Assembly (NCBI GenBank): GCA_947458145.1
Contig: CANGYM010000002.1
Coordinates: 1 to 49,564, forward strand
Direction of reading: 5' to 3'
Length of the DNA stretch: 49,564 nt
From: Alphaproteobacteria bacterium
Lineage (GTDB): Bacteria; Pseudomonadota; Alphaproteobacteria; JAJTHO01; CANGYM01
In this document: positions 12,778-45,134 of the stretch, piece after piece
How the letters are laid out: each line of letters opens with the position of its first letter
Position numbering within the stretch: position 1 is the stretch's first letter
The notes under the pieces: generated by a model
Told to the model about the DNA's origin: nothing
The model's input: only the letters and a program-made list of their open reading frames with translations
Database searches by the model: none
Made by a program: the position numbers and the translations under genes

Positions 12778-13941
12778 TTACAGAAACGCTTTTTGGATTT
12801 TTTCGATCAAATCCAGCTTTTCCCATGGGAAATGGCCCTCGTCTGTAGGCTGGCGGCCAAAATGGCCATAGGCGGCTGTTTCTTGATAAATGGGGCGGTT
12901 CAGCTGCAAATGCTGGCGAATGCCTTTGGGGGTTAGGTCAATAAAGCTGCGCAGCTTTTCGGCCACCCTTTCTTCGGGCAAGGTTGTGGTGTCATGAAAA
13001 TTCAAATAAAGCGACAACGGCTCAGACACCCCAATGGCGTAAGACAGCTGCAACGTACAGCGTTTGGCCACCCCTGCCGCCACTAGGTTTTTGGCCAAAT
13101 AACGGGCCGCATAGGCAGCGGAACGATCCACCTTTGTGGGATCCTTCCCCGAAAAGGCCCCGCCCCCATGGGGGGCCGCGCCCCCATACGTATCAACAAT
13201 AATTTTGCGTCCCGTTAATCCCGCATCCCCATCAGGCCCACCGATGACAAAGCGTCCTGTGGGATTGATATAATACTGGGTGTCTGGGGTTAGAAATTCC
13301 GGCGGCAAGGCTTTGGCCACATAATGACGGACAATGTCGTGAACATCAGCAACATCCATGGCTTCGGTATGTTGCGTGGACACCACCACGGATGTGACAC
13401 CCACAGGGCGCTCGTTTTCATATAAAAATGTTAACTGGCTTTTGGCATCAGGGCCTAGGCCTTTGATGTCCCCCAAATGGCGGGCCTCAGTCATCAGGCG
13501 CAAAATTCTGTGGGCATAATAAATGGGGGCAGGCATGAAATCTGGTGTTTCGTCACAAGCATACCCAAACATGATGCCCTGATCACCGGCACCCTCTGCC
13601 TTTTGGGATGTTTCATCCACACCCACGGCGATATCCGCCGATTGTTCGTGCAGATAATTTTGCACCACCAGATTTTTCCAATGAAAGCCCCGCTGTTCAT
13701 ATCCAATACGGCGCACGGTTTGACGCACCACGTCCTCGATCACATCGGGGGTCATGTCATCTGGTCCGCGCACTTCCCCCATCAAAACCACACGGTTGGT
13801 GGTGGCCGCCGTTTCAATGGCGCAGCGGGCGTGGGGATCGCGGGACAAATACGCATCCACCAAAGCATCGGAAATCTGATCGCAAATTTTATCGGGGTGA
13901 CCTTCGGAAACAGATTCACTTGTAAACAAAAAAGCACTCAT
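12778..13941 (-). CDS. metK: S-adenosylmethionine synthetase
   Basis: MetK makes SAM from methionine and ATP. The signatures present are [19 protein letters not shown] near the N-terminus, [16 protein letters not shown] in the middle, and the phosphate-binding loop [19 protein letters not shown]. The length of 387 residues is normal. It starts 10 bases after the accB stop and so is probably the third gene of aroQ-accB-metK. That short gap leaves no space for a SAM riboswitch directly upstream. It converges on the glycosyltransferase gene with only 9 bases between the stops. Confidence 0.97.
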
Positions 13942-35501: not shown

Positions 35502-37394
35502 CTAAACGGCTTCTTGAAACAAATCTTCGTTATCTTCGGGAAGGGTCTTTTGCCCCTTTTTCAACTTTTGCAGAATAGCCGCCAAGGCCACGGGGGTAAT
35601 ACCCTCTAAATTGCGGGCGTCTTCCATGGTTTTGGGGCGGGCAGCGGAAAGACGAAGACGCTCTTCGGCGGAAAGACACACCAAAGCATCATAGGAAAAC
35701 GTTTCAGGGATCCGTTTTTGCCGGTGTTCGGCCACCATACGCCGTTCCTGATCGTGCCGTTTCAAATACCCTGCGTACAACACTTCACTTTGCAGGGTAT
35801 CAAACAAATCCTCAGAAAAAGGGGCATGATGACCGCTTTGCCTGAGCAAAGCCAACGCATCATCATACCCACACAAAGGCAAAAGCGCATAAAGAGAACA
35901 CTCACTTTTTCTCTCTTCCCCTGTCAAACGGCTGCATTCATCGGGGGTTAGCCTGAGTCCACCCATCGTTTCCTTCCAATGATCCATTATTGAACATTTG
36001 TTCACAAAAAAATCATACCGATGACGGCCCACAATCCCCTGTTGATACCCCCAACCTGTCAGGCGCTGATCCGCATTGTCCGCCCGCAAGCTTAACCGAT
36101 ACTCCGCCCGTGATGTGAACATGCGATAGGGCTCCTGAACACCCTTGCTTACCAAATCATCCACCATAACCCCAAGGTAACCCTCCGAGCGGTCAATCAC
36201 CACGCCATCGCGTCCTGCGGCCCGATGGGCTGCGTTCAAACCAGCGAGAAGACCTTGGGCTGCGGCCTCTTCATAACCCGTGGTTCCATTGATTTGTCCT
36301 GCCAAAAACAGGCCCTCTATATTTTGGCTTTCCAACGTCGATTTCAGGGCGCGAGGATCAATGTAATCATATTCAATGGCATAAGCGTATTGTTTTATTT
36401 TAACATTTTCCAGTCCTGGAATGGTCCGCAAAAAAGCGTCCTGAACCGCATCCGGCAAAGAATTTGATAGCCCGTTGGGATACAGCGTGGGGTCGTTCAG
36501 GCCCTCCGGCTCTAAAAAAATCTGATGCCGTGTTTTATCCGCAAAACGAACAATTTTATCCTCGATGGATGGACAATATCGTGGTCCTTTTCCCGCAATA
36601 TGGCCGCCATACAAAGACGATTCCTGCAAATGGTCCCGCAGAATCCCGTGTGTTTTTTCCGTGGTGTAGGTTATAAAACAATCGGTCTGGGGAACCGTTA
36701 TGGTTTCAGTCAGGAACGAAAAGGGGTAGGGGCGAGCATCGGCATGCTGGCGCTCGACTTGACTGTAATCGACACTGTGGGCGCACAAACGGGCTGGGGT
36801 TCCCGTTTTCAAACGCCCCACCGGAAACCCTTGGGCATAAAACCAATCGGCCAAGGGCACACTGCTGGCCGCGCCCATGCGCCCCGCAGGAAACGATATT
36901 TTTCCCCGATGGATCATCCCCCGCAAAAAGGTCCCCGTGGCCACCACCACACTGCCACAGACATAGAACTGCCCATTAACAGTGACCCCGTTAATTTTTT
37001 GATTGTTTACGGAAAACGCCGTGGCTTCTCCCTCAATAACCATCAAACCCGACGTTTCAGAAATATGCTTTTGAACAGAGGCCCGAAACAGAGCCCGATC
37101 CGACTGGGTTCTGGGCCCCCGAACGGCCGGCCCCTTGCTGCGGTTTAACAAACGAAACTGAATGCCACTTTCATCAGCGGCTTTTCCCATAATGCCATCC
37201 AGCGCATCAATTTCACGGACCAGATGCCCCTTTCCAATCCCCCCAATGGCCGGATTGCAGGACATTTCCCCCAAAGTATCCCGTCGATGGGTAATCAGGG
37301 CCGTTTTCGCCCCCATGCGGGCAGCTGCCGCAGCGGCCTCAACCCCTGCATGCCCACCGCCGATAACCATAACATCAAAAAAAGACTCGGACAT
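35502..37394 (-). CDS. mnmG: MnmG (GidA), tRNA wobble-uridine modification flavoprotein
   Basis: MnmG works with MnmE to place the carboxymethylaminomethyl group on U34 of certain tRNAs. The FAD-binding [21 protein letters not shown] is at the N-terminus, followed by [53 protein letters not shown] and [17 protein letters not shown]. The C-terminal helical domain interacts with MnmE. At 630 residues it is normal. It follows mnmE after 36 bases, and that gap holds a ParB-site-like palindrome. It is convergent with trpD, with only 4 bases between the stop codons. Confidence 0.97.
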
Positions 37395-37398
37395 GGCT

Positions 37399-37410
37399 TT
37401 TCACGTGAAA
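37399..37410. promoter_or_regulatory. parS-like palindrome in the mnmE-mnmG gap
   Basis: TTTCACGTGAAA is a perfect 12-bp palindrome identical to the core of the bacterial parS consensus (TGTTTCACGTGAAACA). The two outer bases on each side do not match. It lies 5-16 bases upstream of the mnmG start codon. parS sites bind ParB and cluster near the origin, often around the mnmG-parAB region in alphaproteobacteria. I saw no second exact copy of the core in the window. Confidence 0.5.
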
Positions 37411-37430
37411 GTTTAAGTGCATTTTATGGG

Positions 37431-38762
37431 TTATTTGCCGATGCAAAACCCTGAAAAAATACGATCCAAGACCTCTTCCTGATCCACGTCATGGACCATA
37501 GAGGCAAGGGTATCAAAAACATCATAAAGAATTTGAACCCTGATTTCCAATCTTTTTTCTTCAAATGCTGCATTCAGGGCAATGAACGCCCGATCCAAAG
37601 CTCCCTTGATCACATCTCCACTGTCGGCTTTTTCCACAGATGAAGAAAATTCCTCTTCTAAGATTTTTTGAACACACGATTCCAGTTCGCGCAACCCCTC
37701 TCGACTTTGCGACGAAACACATACGGTTTCCTTGTGTTGGTCATAGGGGAACACATCTGCCTTGGTTAGCACCAAAACAACATTGGGGGAGTGGCACTGC
37801 GCCCTGAGGATTTCCTCCTGATCAAGGGTTTCCTGATCCAACATCAAAAGGGTGATTCTGGCCAATTTTTCCTGATCCCGTGTGCGCTGAATCCCCATGG
37901 CCTCTAGGGGATCTGCCGTTTCTCTGACCCCCGCTGTGTCAATCAGGCGCACAGCATAGCCCCCCCAATTCACCAACACCTGCACCACATCCCGTGTGGT
38001 CCCAGGAATATCGGACACCAACGCACATTCCTCACGCGCCAAGGCGTTCAGAAGCGAGGATTTCCCCACATTCGGGGGGCCCACCAAGATCACAGGAATT
38101 CCCGACCGCAACATCTCTTTTTTTTGATAAAAATCCTGATATTGCTTCACAATAACAATCAGTTCTTCTATTTTTTCTGATAGGGCATTTTCCAGATCAC
38201 TTGAAATATCATCCTCATCCGGAAATTCCAGAGACGCCTCTGCATCCCGCAACAATAAAAGCAATTGTTCACGCACAAAATCCAAATCCTCGTGGACAAC
38301 CCCCGTGGTTTGCCCCGTCATTTGGGCCAACGCTGCACGGTACTGTTGCTGGGTTTGTGATTCGATCAGATAGCGCACGCCTAGGGCTTCCTCAAGGGTC
38401 ATCTTTCCCTTAAGAACAGCCCGCCTAGAAAATTCCCCAGGCTCTGCCAAACGAAGGCCGTTTTGATGAAGACAGGCGCAAAAGTGATCATTCACAGATT
38501 TTCCTGCATGAAGACTGATTTCCGCCACGTCCTCCCCCGTATAGCTGTTGGGGGCCGGATAAAAGACCACCAGAGCGCAGGGATCAATAAGGGCGCCCTC
38601 TGTATCCATCAAAGTAACTTTGTAGCTGTAGCGGCCTTTAAAAGTGGATTTTCCTGTCATCTGTTGGATTGCCAACAAAGCCTGTGGTCCCGAGAGTCGG
38701 TACAAAGACACAGATCCCCCTGACGGGGTAAGGGGCGCATAGATGGTCTGTGTGTCCTTCAT
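37431..38762 (-). CDS. mnmE: MnmE (TrmE), tRNA-modifying GTPase
   Basis: This is the partner GTPase of MnmG. The N-terminal formyl-THF-binding domain (IYAPLTPSGGSVSLYRLSGP; AEPGEFSRRAVLKGKMTLEEA) is followed by a helical domain with an inserted G domain. The G domain has GPPNVGKSSLLN, DIPGTTRD, DTAGVRET and TKAD. The protein ends in FCIGK with the conserved Cys. I start at the ATG giving MKDTQTIYAPLTPSGG (443 residues), which makes a 4-base ATGA overlap with lnt. Earlier in-frame codons would run into lnt. Confidence 0.96.
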   Translation of the reverse strand: MKDTQTIYAPLTPSGGSVSLYRLSGPQALLAIQQMTGKSTFKGRYSYKVTLMDTEGALIDPCALVVFYPAPNSYTGEDVAEISLHAGKSVNDHFCACLHQNGLRLAEPGEFSRRAVLKGKMTLEEALGVRYLIESQTQQQYRAALAQMTGQTTGVVHEDLDFVREQLLLLLRDAEASLEFPDEDDISSDLENALSEKIEELIVIVKQYQDFYQKKEMLRSGIPVILVGPPNVGKSSLLNALAREECALVSDIPGTTRDVVQVLVNWGGYAVRLIDTAGVRETADPLEAMGIQRTRDQEKLARITLLMLDQETLDQEEILRAQCHSPNVVLVLTKADVFPYDQHKETVCVSSQSREGLRELESCVQKILEEEFSSSVEKADSGDVIKGALDRAFIALNAAFEEKRLEIRVQILYDVFDTLASMVHDVDQEEVLDRIFSGFCIGK

Positions 38763-40252
38763 CGACGCGATACACGGTAACAAAGAAAAAACATGAACAA
38801 ACCAAAAACCCCACTGGCCCAAAGGCCAGCGTAAGAATACAGGGTGCGACGAACCTCAACAGGAAGAGGGGCCACCAAAACTCCCGCGGCATCCATGGGT
38901 AAATCTTGCAGGATACGACCCTTGGCATCAACGACAGCAGTTTTTCCTGTATTGGCCACACGAATCAGGGGGAGGCCCTCCTCGATCGTTCTGACCCTAG
39001 CCTGATAAAAATGCTGCGCAGGTCCCCAAGAATCACCAAACCAAGCATCATTGGTCACATTAACCATCCAGCGTGCATCGTGTAAAACGATGGTCCCTGA
39101 AAACAAAGACTCGTAGCAGATTTGAGGGGACGCGGGGGGAAATCCAGGTAGGGAAAGAGGCTCAACCTCATCCGGTCCGGACTGAAAACGGGGCATACCT
39201 TTCTGATTGAGAAAGACAAAAGGAAGAGAGGATAGAAACGGAACCTTCTCCCCAAAGGGAACCAGATGGCGCTTGGTATAGGTGGCCAGACGGTTCAAAT
39301 GTTCATCCACAACCCAGATCTGATTCATGTTCACAACCTCTCCCGCCATTGTTTCCCGAACTGAAACCCCCATCATCAACAGGCGCCCCCCAGAGAGCAA
39401 AGTTTTTAAAGAGTTCTGAAACACAGGATCTTCCATTTGATGGCCATAAATCGCTGTTTCTGGCCAAACGATCAACCGCGCCCCCTGTTCCTGAGCAGCT
39501 TGGGCGCTCAGGAACAGCAGACGCTTTTGATAACCTGGTGTATAAAACCCCATAACTTTTTCATCCTGCGTCCACGACGGCTGAACCAAAGCTATGGTTG
39601 CTGGGGAGGCATTGGCAGAGGGGAGAGAAGGGGCACGATCCACGTGATGCAAAACGCCATATCCAGCACCCGCCACCAAAAACCATACACCCAGCGTCAC
39701 AAGAGCGGATTTTAGAGAATGAATAAAAAGGTGAACACTCGCAAAAACAGCAACACTTAACCCCAGAATACCCACCAAAGCTGTGCTTTGTAAAACAGGT
39801 AAAGTCCCCCCCCAAATGCCGCCCATAAATAACCATGGAAAGGGAAGGACAAGATACCCACGAATCCCCTCCATAACGACCCACGCGGCCCCCAAAGCCC
39901 AAGAGGCATGATGCCGTGGCAAATAACGACGAACCCCGTAGGCCATCAAACCATGGGGCAGCGCCAAGACCAACGGAATCCCCCAAAGGGCCAAGGGAAT
40001 CAACGAGGCAGGCAAGGATGGAAAAAACGTTAACGCCTCAGCAATCCAACGAAGTCCCCATCCAAAATAACCGTACGCAAAGGCAAAAACCAAAACCGCC
40101 GCAAAACGTCTGGATTCACTGGACCGATACGCCCAAAACAAAGCCACCAACGATCCCACGGACAACGGCCACAGGTGATAGGGAGCCTGCCCCAAAGAAC
40201 AAACAACGCCCAGGGCCAAGCTTAGGAAAAAACCCAGTCCCGTCACAATCAT
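38759..40252 (-). CDS. lnt: Apolipoprotein N-acyltransferase
   Basis: Lnt adds the third acyl chain to outer-membrane lipoproteins in the inner membrane. Several hydrophobic segments fill the first 200 residues and one lies at the C-terminus (LYSYAGLWASGVFGLFMFFL). The nitrilase-like periplasmic domain between them has the Glu265-Lys327-Cys379 triad (VWPETAIYG, TYTKRHLVPFGE, ICYESLFSG). The length of 497 residues is typical. It overlaps corC upstream by 4 bases and mnmE downstream by 4 bases, so ybeY-corC-lnt-mnmE-mnmG reads as one unit. Confidence 0.96.
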   Translation of the reverse strand: MIVTGLGFFLSLALGVVCSLGQAPYHLWPLSVGSLVALFWAYRSSESRRFAAVLVFAFAYGYFGWGLRWIAEALTFFPSLPASLIPLALWGIPLVLALPHGLMAYGVRRYLPRHHASWALGAAWVVMEGIRGYLVLPFPWLFMGGIWGGTLPVLQSTALVGILGLSVAVFASVHLFIHSLKSALVTLGVWFLVAGAGYGVLHHVDRAPSLPSANASPATIALVQPSWTQDEKVMGFYTPGYQKRLLFLSAQAAQEQGARLIVWPETAIYGHQMEDPVFQNSLKTLLSGGRLLMMGVSVRETMAGEVVNMNQIWVVDEHLNRLATYTKRHLVPFGEKVPFLSSLPFVFLNQKGMPRFQSGPDEVEPLSLPGFPPASPQICYESLFSGTIVLHDARWMVNVTNDAWFGDSWGPAQHFYQARVRTIEEGLPLIRVANTGKTAVVDAKGRILQDLPMDAAGVLVAPLPVEVRRTLYSYAGLWASGVFGLFMFFLCYRVSRR

Positions 40253-41034
40253 GGTTTTTTAAAAATAACCCTCAGGGTTTTCACACGTCTGGCATCGACA
40301 TCCAAAATTTCAAAATCCAAATTGGGACTGACGGTGATCATTTCCCCACGTGCGGGCACACGGGCAACCTTATGAAAAACAAGGCCCGCCAAAGTATCCA
40401 TATCGACGTCTATGTCTTCTTTAACAAGATCGTCCCTATCCTCAAAAAAATTCAGAAAATCGACGATTTCTGTCCTTGCATCAAAAAGGAACACATCGTT
40501 ATCCTCTGAATTGTCTTCTTTTTTAGGGGAATTCACTGAGATTTGATGGGATAAAAAGTACGTTTCAACCAGCGATTCTACCAGCATTTGGGTGGTCACC
40601 ATACCATCAACCCCGCCGAATTCATCCACCACAATAGCCATATCAATTTTTTGGGAAAACATCTGATCCGCCAAATCCAATAAGGGTTTGGTGTGGGGAA
40701 TATACTCGGGTTGCTGTAACAGGGCTTCTAAAGGTTTGGGGGGCGTTGAAACCATGCCTTCCCAAAGATCCCGCAACCGAACATACGCATAAATATGGTC
40801 AATTTCCCCGCGGGTGACAGGAAAAACGCACCATGGATGATCTTTAACGCAAGCTATAATGTCTTGGGGGGTCATATCTAGCCTTAGTGCGACCATGTCC
40901 ACCCTTGGTAAATAAACATCGTACGCAGTGGCTTGGGAAAGTTTCTGAGTGAAGGCTTCTAAGGCCTCTTCGTTCATACCCTCTTCGTCTTCACTCTGGC
41001 CAGAAAAGACCCATTGTCTTAAGGATTTAAGCAT
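40249..41034 (-). CDS. corC: CorC/HlyC-type CBS-domain protein
   Basis: This soluble protein carries a pair of CBS domains (about residues 45-165: VYLPRVDMVALRLDMTPQDII and the region around MAIVVDEFGGVDGMVT). It has a C-terminal CorC/HlyC transporter-associated domain (MDTLAGLVFHKVARVPARGEMITV). It lacks the membrane part of full CNNM or YfjD-type exporters. Such short forms are linked to magnesium/cobalt efflux, but the role is not firmly known. The length of 261 residues is normal. It lies between ybeY and lnt, the usual alphaproteobacterial order, overlapping both (16 and 4 bases). Confidence 0.92.
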   Translation of the reverse strand: MLKSLRQWVFSGQSEDEEGMNEEALEAFTQKLSQATAYDVYLPRVDMVALRLDMTPQDIIACVKDHPWCVFPVTRGEIDHIYAYVRLRDLWEGMVSTPPKPLEALLQQPEYIPHTKPLLDLADQMFSQKIDMAIVVDEFGGVDGMVTTQMLVESLVETYFLSHQISVNSPKKEDNSEDNDVFLFDARTEIVDFLNFFEDRDDLVKEDIDVDMDTLAGLVFHKVARVPARGEMITVSPNLDFEILDVDARRVKTLRVIFKKP

Positions 41035-41471
41035 AAAGACCCAAAATAAGGATCGGGAATACCCAAAATTTTAAGGGCAGCAGTTTCCTTGGCTTCCATA
41101 ATCGCGGCATCATCGTCTGTTTCGTGGTCATACCCCAGAAGATGAAATATACCATGGATCACCAGATGAACACAATGGTTTATCATGGGTTTGTTTTGCT
41201 GAGTAGCCTCGGCCAAAACAGTCTCATAAGCCAACACAACATCCCCCAAAACAGAAGGATCTGAAAAGGCTCCGGTGTTCGCAAAACTCAGAACATTGGT
41301 GGGGGTATTTTTTTGTCGGTATGTGCTGTTTAAGTGCTGAACGAAAGCATCATCGGCCAAAAAAACCGTTACTGTCCCTTTGATAGAAAACAAACGCGAT
41401 AAACGTAAAGTGCGAAGCTCAGAAGCTAAGCCCCCCCATCGTTTTTCATTCCTTCTTATAATAATATTCAT
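41019..41471 (-). CDS. ybeY: Endoribonuclease YbeY
   Basis: YbeY is a zinc-dependent RNase that acts in 16S rRNA 3'-end maturation and ribosome quality control. The metal motif HLVIHGIFHLLGYDHETDDD contains the three His ligands. TPTNVLSFA and LGDVVLAYETV precede it as in the family. The length of 150 residues is normal. It is the first gene of the leftward unit and its 5' end borders the AT-rich candidate origin. The usual upstream neighbours phoH and miaB are absent. Confidence 0.95.
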   Translation of the reverse strand: MNIIIRRNEKRWGGLASELRTLRLSRLFSIKGTVTVFLADDAFVQHLNSTYRQKNTPTNVLSFANTGAFSDPSVLGDVVLAYETVLAEATQQNKPMINHCVHLVIHGIFHLLGYDHETDDDAAIMEAKETAALKILGIPDPYFGSLCLNP

Positions 41472-41624
41472 AGATATATAATTTTATGATGTTGTAGTAA
41501 GGGGTGTGAGTAAGGGGAAAACAAAAACACTCTTTGAGATATACACAGTTTTTAAGCCTGATGAAAATAATAAAAAGTTTTTATTATCAAAACATAAACA
41601 AGTAAGTGAACGCATACTTTTAAC

Positions 41625-41633
41625 TTATCCACA
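41625..41633 (+). other. DnaA box, perfect TTATCCACA
   Basis: This is an exact match to the strong DnaA-binding consensus, in the AT-rich gap upstream of ppsR. Confidence 0.65.
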
Positions 41634-41721
41634 AAATGGTTTTTTCTAAACACAAAACAGGGGAGAAAAAAAGAAAAAACGTGTACAAAAACGCATCGTT
41701 CTGAAAAGGAGAAAAGACAGT

Positions 41722-42564
41722 ATGGGGTTATCCACACATCAAAACGAAGTCTGTGTTCACTTTGTTTCCGACTCTACAGGGGAGACTGTCACCAAGGTGG
41801 GGCGGGCGGCCTTTGCCCAATTTCAGAAAAAAAACATTGTTGAAAATTTGTGGCCATTTGTTCACACGCCGCGGCAAATTCTACACATTTTGAAAAAAAT
41901 TGAAGCCCAGCCCGGGGTTGTCATTTGCACACTGGTGGATGATCTTCTTTTTCAAGAATTAAAGAAAGGGTGTGATCGTTTAGGGTTGCCTTGCATTTCT
42001 CTCCTTGGTCCGTTGCTGTCGTTTTTAGAAGGGGAGGGATGGTCCCGTATTGCCCCCAAAGCAGGGCGGCAGCATGATTTGGACAGTGCGTATTTTCGCC
42101 GTATTGATGCGGTGGACTTTGCCCTGAATCACGATGATGGGCATGGATTGGACACCATTCATGAGGCGGATGTTATTTTGCTGGGCGTTTCCAGATCCTC
42201 CAAAACCCCTTGCTGTGTTTATTTGTCTTATAAGGGGATTAAGGCCGCCAATGTCCCCCTGATTCTGGATGCCCCGTTGGATGAACGGTTGATTCAGCTT
42301 TTGACAAAAGCGGATCGTCCTTTAATTGTGGGTCTTCTTCAGGATCCTTCACTGCTCAGGAATATCCGTCAGAAACGGGCGGAACATCTTTCCCACGATT
42401 GCGACGATTATACGTCAACGGAAAACATTCGTCAGGAAACCTTTTATGCCCAGAAATTATTTAAAAAATACAATATCCCCACCATCAGCGTGTCCCGCCG
42501 ATCAGTGGAGGAAATTGTGGCCATGGTCATCAGTATGATGGGTGCCAAGCGGATGGAGGGGTGA
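41722..42564 (+). CDS. ppsR: Pyruvate, phosphate dikinase / PEP synthase regulatory protein (DUF299, RP001 family)
   Basis: This bifunctional kinase/pyrophosphorylase switches pyruvate-phosphate dikinase or PEP synthase on and off. The N-terminal HFVSDSTGETVTKVGRAAFAQF and the P-loop GVSRSSKT at 155-162 followed by YLSYKGIKAANVPL are the family signatures, and the ending SVEEIVAMVISMMG is typical. The length of 280 residues is normal. AAGGAG lies 10 bases before the ATG. Which target (PpdK or PpsA) is used cannot be told, as neither gene is here. The family gene borders the origin in several alphaproteobacteria. Confidence 0.94.
   Translation: MGLSTHQNEVCVHFVSDSTGETVTKVGRAAFAQFQKKNIVENLWPFVHTPRQILHILKKIEAQPGVVICTLVDDLLFQELKKGCDRLGLPCISLLGPLLSFLEGEGWSRIAPKAGRQHDLDSAYFRRIDAVDFALNHDDGHGLDTIHEADVILLGVSRSSKTPCCVYLSYKGIKAANVPLILDAPLDERLIQLLTKADRPLIVGLLQDPSLLRNIRQKRAEHLSHDCDDYTSTENIRQETFYAQKLFKKYNIPTISVSRRSVEEIVAMVISMMGAKRMEG
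41728..41736 (+). other. DnaA box, perfect TTATCCACA, within ppsR codons 3-5
   Basis: This second exact match has the same orientation as the box at 41625 and lies 103 bases after it. It falls in the first codons of ppsR. Confidence 0.6.
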
Positions 42565-42578
42565 TCCCCGAACAATCT

Positions 42579-45134
42579 TTACACAAGGGCCAGTGCATCC
42601 CCCTGAACATCCAAAGCCGCTGTGCTGTGATCAGTTAGGGTGCCGCTGAGGATGGCCTCTGCCAACAGGTCCTGAACATTTTTCTGGATCACTCGTTTTA
42701 AGGGGCGTGCCCCATAGGTGGGATCAAAACCCCGTTGCGCCAGCCAAGCTTTGGCCGGATCCGTAACAGTCAGGGCAATATCGCGTCCCGCCAGCAGGGT
42801 GTGAAGGCGTTTGAGCTGAATGTCCACAATGGCCGCCATATGATCCCGCGACAGGGGATTAAACAGTAAAATTTCATCCAAACGGTTGATAAACTCAGGA
42901 CGAAAGGCCCCGCGCACCCGATCCATGACCAGCGGAAAAATAATTTCCGACGGTGTCCCATGGGGATGACTGGCAATCACATCGCTGCCCAAGTTGGATG
43001 TTAAAATCAAAACGGTGTTTTTAAAATCCACCGTGTGGCCTTGGCCATCGGTCAGGCGCCCTTCATCCAGAACCTGCAGCAGGATGTTGAACACATCATT
43101 ATGCGCCTTTTCAACCTCATCAAACAAAATGATGCGGTAAGGGCGACGACGGACGGCCTCAGTAAGGGCCCCCCCTTGTTCATACCCCACATACCCTGGG
43201 GGGGCACCAATCAGACGCGCCACCGCGTGTTTTTCCATGTATTCGGACATATCGATGCGCAGCAAAGCGGCTTCGTCATCAAACAAAAACTGCGCCAAAG
43301 CCTTGCTGAGCTCGGTTTTTCCAACACCGGTTGGGCCCAAAAACAAAAACGAACCAATGGGGCGGTTGGTATCTTGCAGACCGGCGCGGGAGCGGCGCAC
43401 GGCTTGGGAAACGGCTGCCACGGCCTCGCGTTGACCCACCACGGTTTGGGACAGTACGGATTCCATGGCCAGCAATTTTTCCCGCTCACCCTCCAGCATC
43501 TTATCCACGGGAATGCCAGTCCAGCGGGACACAATGCTGGCGATGTCGTGTTCGGTGACGGTATCGTTGGCCATGCCTTGGGTGGCGGCCTCTAGTTCAG
43601 AGAGTTTTTTTTGTAACATGGGGATTTTGCCGTAGGCAATCTCTCCGGCTTTGGCCAAATCCCCTGAACGCTGGGCGTTTTCCAGGGCGACTTTTAACGT
43701 GTCCAGCTCTTCTTTGGTTTTTTGAATGTTGCCCAATTGATCCCGCTGGGCCTGCCATTTGGCTGTTTCCACGGTGGCGGTTTCGGTTAGGGTGGAAAGT
43801 TCCTTTTCCAATTCTAACAGACGCTTGATAGAGGCCTCGTCCGTTTCTTTTTTCAGGGCCTGCTGTTCAATTTTTAACTGAATGATGCGGCGGTCCATAT
43901 CCTCCAGCGCCTCTGGCTTGGATTGAATTTGCATCCTCAGGCGGGCGGCGGCTTCATCCATCAGGTCAATGGCTTTATCAGGCAGAAAACGATCACTGAT
44001 ATAACGGTCCGAAAGGGTTGCCGCCGCCACCAACGCATGATCACTGATACGCACGGCGTGGTGCAGTTCGTATTTTTCCTTGATCCCCCGTAAAATGGAA
44101 ATGGTTTCCCCGACGGTGGGTTGATCCACAAATACGGGCTGGAAACGACGGGCCAGCGCAGCATCTTTTTCAATGTATTTGCGGTATTCATCCAGCGTTG
44201 TGGCCCCAATACAGTGCAACTCCCCCCGCGCCAAAGCGGGTTTGAGCATATTGCTGGCATCCATCGCCCCCTCGGCTTTGCCGGCCCCAACGAGAGTATG
44301 CAGTTCATCAATAAACAAAATCACCTGACCCTCTTCGGCGGAAACCTCGGCCAGTAAGGCTTTCAGGCGTTCTTCGAATTCCCCTCTGAACTTGGCGCCG
44401 GCCACCAGAGCGCCCAGATCCAACGCCAAAAGCTTTTTATCCTTTAAACTGTCGGGAACATCACGATTCACGATGCGCTGGGCGAGCCCCTCAATAATCG
44501 CGGTTTTCCCCACACCGGGTTCCCCGATCAAAACAGGATTGTTTTTGGTGCGACGGGACAGAACCTGAATGGTGCGGCGAATTTCTTCGTCCCTTCCGAT
44601 GACGGGGTCGATTTTTCCCAATGCGGCTTTTTCCGTAAAGTCCAAGGTGTATTTTTTCAGGGCCTGATACCCCCCCTCGGCCGCCGGAGAGTCCGCCGTG
44701 CGTCCTTTGCGGATTTTGGCAATTTGGGATTCCAGTTTTTCTGCGGTTGCCCCCAGAGAACGCAACAGGTCCCCCGCGGCACTTTTTGATGCCACGATGG
44801 CCTGCAGCAGGCGTTCCTGCGTGACGTATTGATCTTTGTAGGATGTGGCCAAGCGGCTGGCCTCATCCAAAATCTGCGCGGCCTCACGTCCCCAGTGCAT
44901 TTCGGCGCCGGTGCCAGAGACCTTGGGTAATTTTGCCAATTCTTCCTGAATCCTCTGGGCCAATAGGTTGCTATCAATCCCGATCAGGAGGTTTTTGGCC
45001 AGTCCATCCTCATCCTCCAGCAATGCGGAGAGGATATGAAACGGCGTCACCTGCTGATGCCCTGCACGCATGGCCAGCGTTTGAGATGTTTGCAGTGTTT
45101 TTTGGGTTTTTTCGGTGAATTTTTCGATGTCCAT
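42579..45134 (-). CDS. clpB: ClpB disaggregase
   Basis: ClpB is a hexameric AAA+ chaperone that, with DnaK, pulls apart protein aggregates after heat stress. The N-domain spans 1-150, the first ATPase domain has Walker A GEPGVGKT at 204-211, and the coiled-coil M domain (about 405-520, [19 protein letters not shown]) separates it from the second ATPase domain with [14 protein letters not shown]. There is no ClpP-binding IGF/L loop. The length of 851 residues is normal. A heat-shock-type promoter is visible upstream. ppsR converges on it with a 14-base gap. Confidence 0.97.

Follow-up and report, generated by a model that had tools for sequence, protein, structure and literature searches.

A probable chromosomal replication origin between ybeY and ppsR in an uncultivated alphaproteobacterial order

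In Caulobacter crescentus and Rickettsia, the chromosomal origin lies between hemE and a COG1806 gene (RP001/CC_0001), according to the account of Brassinga et al. cited in PMC1914354, and in Wolbachia, Ehrlichia, and Anaplasma it is found between hemE and a COG1253 gene (PMC1914354). Seven criteria for recognizing alphaproteobacterial origins have been published in the same study. The window analyzed here is the entire contig C2 (49,564 bases) of an alphaproteobacterial draft genome (G000; 1.41 Mb, 1413498 bases, 111 contigs, 96% complete), and it was compared with the only other genome of the genus that was found (G001, MAG CANGYP01, "Alphaproteobacteria bacterium isolate RE-18aug17-8") and with two further genomes of the same order (G002 and G003). 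The intergenic region between ybeY and ppsR on this contig is probably the chromosomal oriC (probability roughly 0.8) and would represent a rearranged hemE|COG1806 variant in which ybeY has replaced hemE. An earlier note on this DNA had proposed such a rearranged origin, and this reading gains consistent support from neighborhood, order-level synteny, AT-richness, a switch in GC skew, constraint on the sequence, and the parS core close by.

As far as the hemE|COG1806 origin is described in that source, the present locus resembles it in that ppsR/COG1806 forms one boundary and is transcribed outward from the gap, in an A+T content above that of the genome, DnaA boxes, a shift in GC skew, and in having mnmG, mnmE, and a parS-like site no more than 6 kb away. 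It differs from the Caulobacter and Rickettsia origins, within the limits of the same description, in that ybeY stands instead of hemE, the gap measures 250 bp rather than about 380-400, boxes are less numerous, consensus sites for CtrA and IHF are lacking, and parAB is off the contig. The rearranged boundary is shared with Wolbachia, Ehrlichia, and Anaplasma, where a CorC_HlyC-domain gene likewise adjoins the gap or lies one gene away; however, those genera keep hemE and have COG1806 replaced, whereas G000 keeps COG1806 and has ybeY in place of hemE, with the corC-like gene second. Compared with the published criteria (PMC1914354), the gap falls within the size range of 200-1000 bp, has a higher A+T content, is conserved, and lies at a GC-skew shift and a COG1806 boundary. 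Its boxes are modest, hemE is not at its boundary, and agreement on binding sites is partial, given the lack of IHF (and CtrA) sites. Since ybeY holds the place of hemE, the locus is best described as a variant of the hemE|COG1806 type and not as a strict member.

The ybeY/ppsR gap, the putative oriC core, occupies 250 bp (41472..41721) and has a GC content of 29.6% in a window of 52.2%. The earlier count of 67 G/C in the 240 bases from 41461 to 41700 is exact. Across contig C2, the lowest-GC 250-bp window (26.4%) starts at 41442, and nearest-neighbor energies place the least stable 60-, 100-, and 200-bp windows at the gap, starting at 41441 and 41455 for the 60- and 100-bp windows, respectively. 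The search for RNA families in the gap gave no matches. Gene names given previously were right, as Pfam returned Kinase-PPPase (ppsR), YbeY, CorC_HlyC, LNT, MnmE, and GIDA. To the right, ppsR (41722..42564, plus strand; Kinase-PPPase, E=2e-79) belongs to the COG1806/RP001 family of classical origin-flanking genes. To the left, all on the minus strand, lie ybeY (41019..41471), identified by Pfam and neighborhood comparison and standing in the usual hemE position, a corC-like gene (40249..41034) with a CorC_HlyC domain and a weak CBS match, mnmE (37431..38822), called from a TTG at 38822 with its real start probably downstream, and mnmG (gidA; 35502..37394), which is near the origin in many alphaproteobacteria. 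The statement that mnmE and mnmG lie less than 6 kb from the gap is thus borne out, with both genes identified by Pfam at 35502..38822.

Two perfect DnaA boxes, TTATCCACA, were found on the plus strand by exact motif scan, at 41625..41633 and 41728..41736. They are 103 bases apart, as had been reported, but only the first is truly intergenic; the second falls in codons 3-5 of ppsR. Together, the two boxes span 112 bp. The 1.41-Mb genome holds 34 perfect TTATCCACA sites, and about 0.08-0.09 chance pairs this close would be expected genome-wide (0.094 using 36 sites), while two boxes with at most one mismatch were reached in 4 of 100 shuffles. The intergenic box is not kept in G001, where the aligned position reads TTGCTTACA. 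The box at 41728 is kept, within a run of identical bases, even though synonymous sites between the two genomes are about half randomized. A scan for DnaA, CtrA, and IHF sites, which the earlier note had suggested, yielded the DnaA boxes but no CtrA (TTAA-N7-TTAA) or IHF consensus site in 41400-41800, and no exact CtrA or IHF site is present in the corresponding gaps of G001, G002, and G003. In most loci of the class that were examined, the gap upstream of ppsR is enriched in DnaA boxes, and many other ppsR loci carry a plus-strand box 27-111 bp upstream of the start of the ppsR match.

The earlier note had found no clean skew switch in sampled G and C counts, and this is wrong, as the steepest minus-to-plus switch lies at 41.8 kb, with a GC skew of -0.118 in the 5 kb to the left and +0.043 in the 5 kb to the right. 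The jump exceeds that at every other usable position in a ~370-kb sample of G000, or roughly one quarter of its genome, comprising the window, 20-kb stretches of C3, C5-C16, and C20, and all of C4; stretches of C1 were excluded, being masked and without usable bases. In the first 40 kb of this largest contig (G000:C1:1-40000), the skew is accordingly undefined and no genes were called. Cumulative skew over the window shows a flat minimum at 41-45 kb, on a fragmented assembly (111 contigs) in which contig C2 extends just 8 kb to the right of the gap. As the gap is bordered on its left by minus-strand genes, skew was corrected for strand using 4-fold sites, giving -0.124 at 27.5-41.5 kb and +0.059 right of the gap. 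In a weighted regression across genes, the right-side effect was +0.12 for all genes (p=0.011) and +0.18 for genes beyond 26 kb (t=3.3), with strand-corrected t values of 2.7-3.3 overall, and the best break fell at 40-42 kb. A switch at the ppsR gap is also seen in G001 (-0.079 to +0.194) and G003 (-0.029 to +0.138). In seven genomes that are more distantly related and complete or nearly so, the local skew is mixed: two have their minimum at most 1 kb from ppsR and the others do not, so class-wide support comes from boxes and synteny.

The gap is 69% identical to that of G001, against 48% at the 4-fold sites of the flanking genes in this comparison of two genomes, and it is therefore under constraint. 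Identity peaks in the 70 bp closest to ybeY and again over 41632-41690. The first of these parts (41472..41541), the most conserved AT-rich section with 73-90% identity in 30-base windows, is a candidate unwinding element, although it could equally hold the ybeY promoter. At its edge, a block identical in G001, TGAGATATACACA (41535..41547, plus strand), contains a weak, putative DnaA-like site with two mismatches at 41539. The gap might instead be no more than an AT-rich promoter region shared by the divergent ybeY and ppsR genes, with boxes present by chance or for DnaA-regulated transcription. Such a region would likewise be AT-rich, conservation is highest on the ybeY side, one of the boxes is coding, and there are three promoter-like matches in the gap, near the shuffled expectation of 1.4. 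Yet a promoter would leave unexplained why the strongest skew switch falls at this gap, why boxes are enriched upstream of ppsR across the class, and why a parS core lies nearby, which makes this explanation quite unlikely.

Comparison of 30 ppsR loci of the class places hemE directly upstream of ppsR in 23, while ybeY takes this position in three, namely those of G000, G001, and G002; the remaining four have no assigned upstream gene, one of them having just 0.6 kb of upstream sequence. The classical layout is retained in G003 as mnmG-parA-parB-mnmE-coaE-aroE-maf-ppsR|hemE (names confirmed by searches, the rest by sequence inspection), with one perfect and three one-mismatch boxes in the ppsR|hemE gap; its contig also bears three perfect parS sites, and parA, parB, and mnmG are close by. 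In G002, the order is corC-ybeY|ppsR-maf-coaE-parB-parA, and the gap holds three boxes, one perfect and two with one mismatch. This box-bearing gap is separated from ppsR by a PIN-domain gene and a preceding short ORF (L037, G002:C55, about 2070-2719); by its layout, the pair appears to be a VapBC-like toxin-antitoxin system inserted before ppsR.

As the earlier note had observed, hemE is missing beside the gap in G000; it is located on contig C69. When hemE and ppsR were separated, the origin could in principle have followed hemE, for which there is a precedent in the Anaplasmataceae, as the Wolbachia origin is reported to be flanked by hemE and a COG1253 gene (PMC1914354). However, the hemE upstream gaps of G000 and G001 are short and show neither a perfect box, a box cluster, nor a skew switch, and in G002, where hemE is not beside ppsR either, no DnaA box occurs within 3.7 kb of hemE and the gene likewise shows no skew switch. 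An origin at hemE was rejected on these grounds and is highly improbable.

The earlier note had also held that a better cluster of DnaA boxes next to a different gene would refute the ybeY|ppsR site. The genome contains two close clusters of TTATCCACA, the 41625/41728 pair and a denser one, the best in the genome, on C4 in the gap between the convergent pth and EAL-domain genes, where three perfect boxes start at 13157, 13321, and 13333 (C4:13157-13341; L035). The origin could lie elsewhere, for example at this C4 gap, in which case ybeY|ppsR would once have been the origin and would still retain its old skew. Two of the C4 boxes are only 12 bp apart, the cluster adjoins AT-rich DNA, a CtrA-like response regulator gene is located ~1 kb away, and the arrangement is kept with near-identical spacing as a mirror copy in G001 (L088, G001:C14). 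However, strand-corrected skew at C4 is negative on both sides (-0.15, -0.08, -0.17, and -0.25 in 4-kb blocks, 8 to 24 kb), the largest local switch there (0.029) is the smallest among all stretches at that window size, and the G001 contig bearing the similar cluster has a skew of almost uniformly one sign. In addition, no classical origin gene is adjacent, and a similar box pair in G002 is found at an unrelated place. Neither in G000 nor in G001 does the skew change sign across the C4 cluster, which is therefore more likely a DnaA regulatory or titration site than an origin, perhaps a datA/DARS-like control site. The cluster beside pth thus answers the description of a better cluster in part, but without a skew switch, without a classical origin gene, and with no counterpart at the equivalent place in G002, it leaves the claim for ppsR standing, and an origin at C4 is considered unlikely.

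Between mnmG and mnmE, 4.2 kb from the ybeY|ppsR gap, lies the palindromic 12-bp parS core TTTCACGTGAAA (37399..37410). Exact copies number one in G000 and one in G001, the latter at the orthologous place, while chance would give about 0.08 per genome (1413498/4^12). No 16-bp parS within two mismatches was detected in G000, and a relaxed parS search of this genome returned just one poor match, on C75. The parB gene is present on C20 in G000 and on C13 in G001, and parAB is not on the window contig. Because a full parB is present yet only the 12-bp core remains, the sequences suggest that ParB specificity has been shortened or altered in this genus, and the site at 37399 may be the ParB-bound segregation center. 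A separate candidate, an origin near parAB on C20 of G000, was rejected, as the sites there are only scattered ones with one mismatch and the skew is mostly uniform.

For the ybeY|ppsR origin, it is proposed that DnaA-ATP (the DnaA gene lies on contig C54) binds the boxes at 41625 and 41728 together with weaker sites and opens the adjacent AT-rich DNA, after which forks would leave the gap in both directions, making the plus strand rich in C on the left side and in G on the right side. The site would descend from the hemE|ppsR (COG1806) origin of the class; a rearrangement in this lineage would have removed hemE and placed ybeY-corC-lnt there instead, leaving the origin next to ppsR, and the parS-like site at 37399 would serve in segregation. 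A broader and more tentative possibility is that the order has rebuilt its origin neighborhood as a whole, keeping ppsR, losing hemE and, in this genus, parAB, gaining ybeY-corC, dropping most strong DnaA boxes and the exact CtrA and IHF sites, and shortening parS, with the separate conserved DnaA-box cluster near ctrA possibly titrating or recharging DnaA. If the ybeY|ppsR assignment is correct, it locates the origin for an uncultivated alphaproteobacterial order and mirrors the Anaplasmataceae, where the origin went with hemE and not, as here, with ppsR; either flank could then be lost while the site persists, and searches demanding hemE beside the origin would miss such a case. On the far side of ppsR, synteny with G001 breaks immediately after the gene (window 42565-45134 versus L036 7300-9434), with clpB following in G000 and an unrelated 444-aa ORF without a Pfam match in G001, where leuS reaches the edge of its contig.
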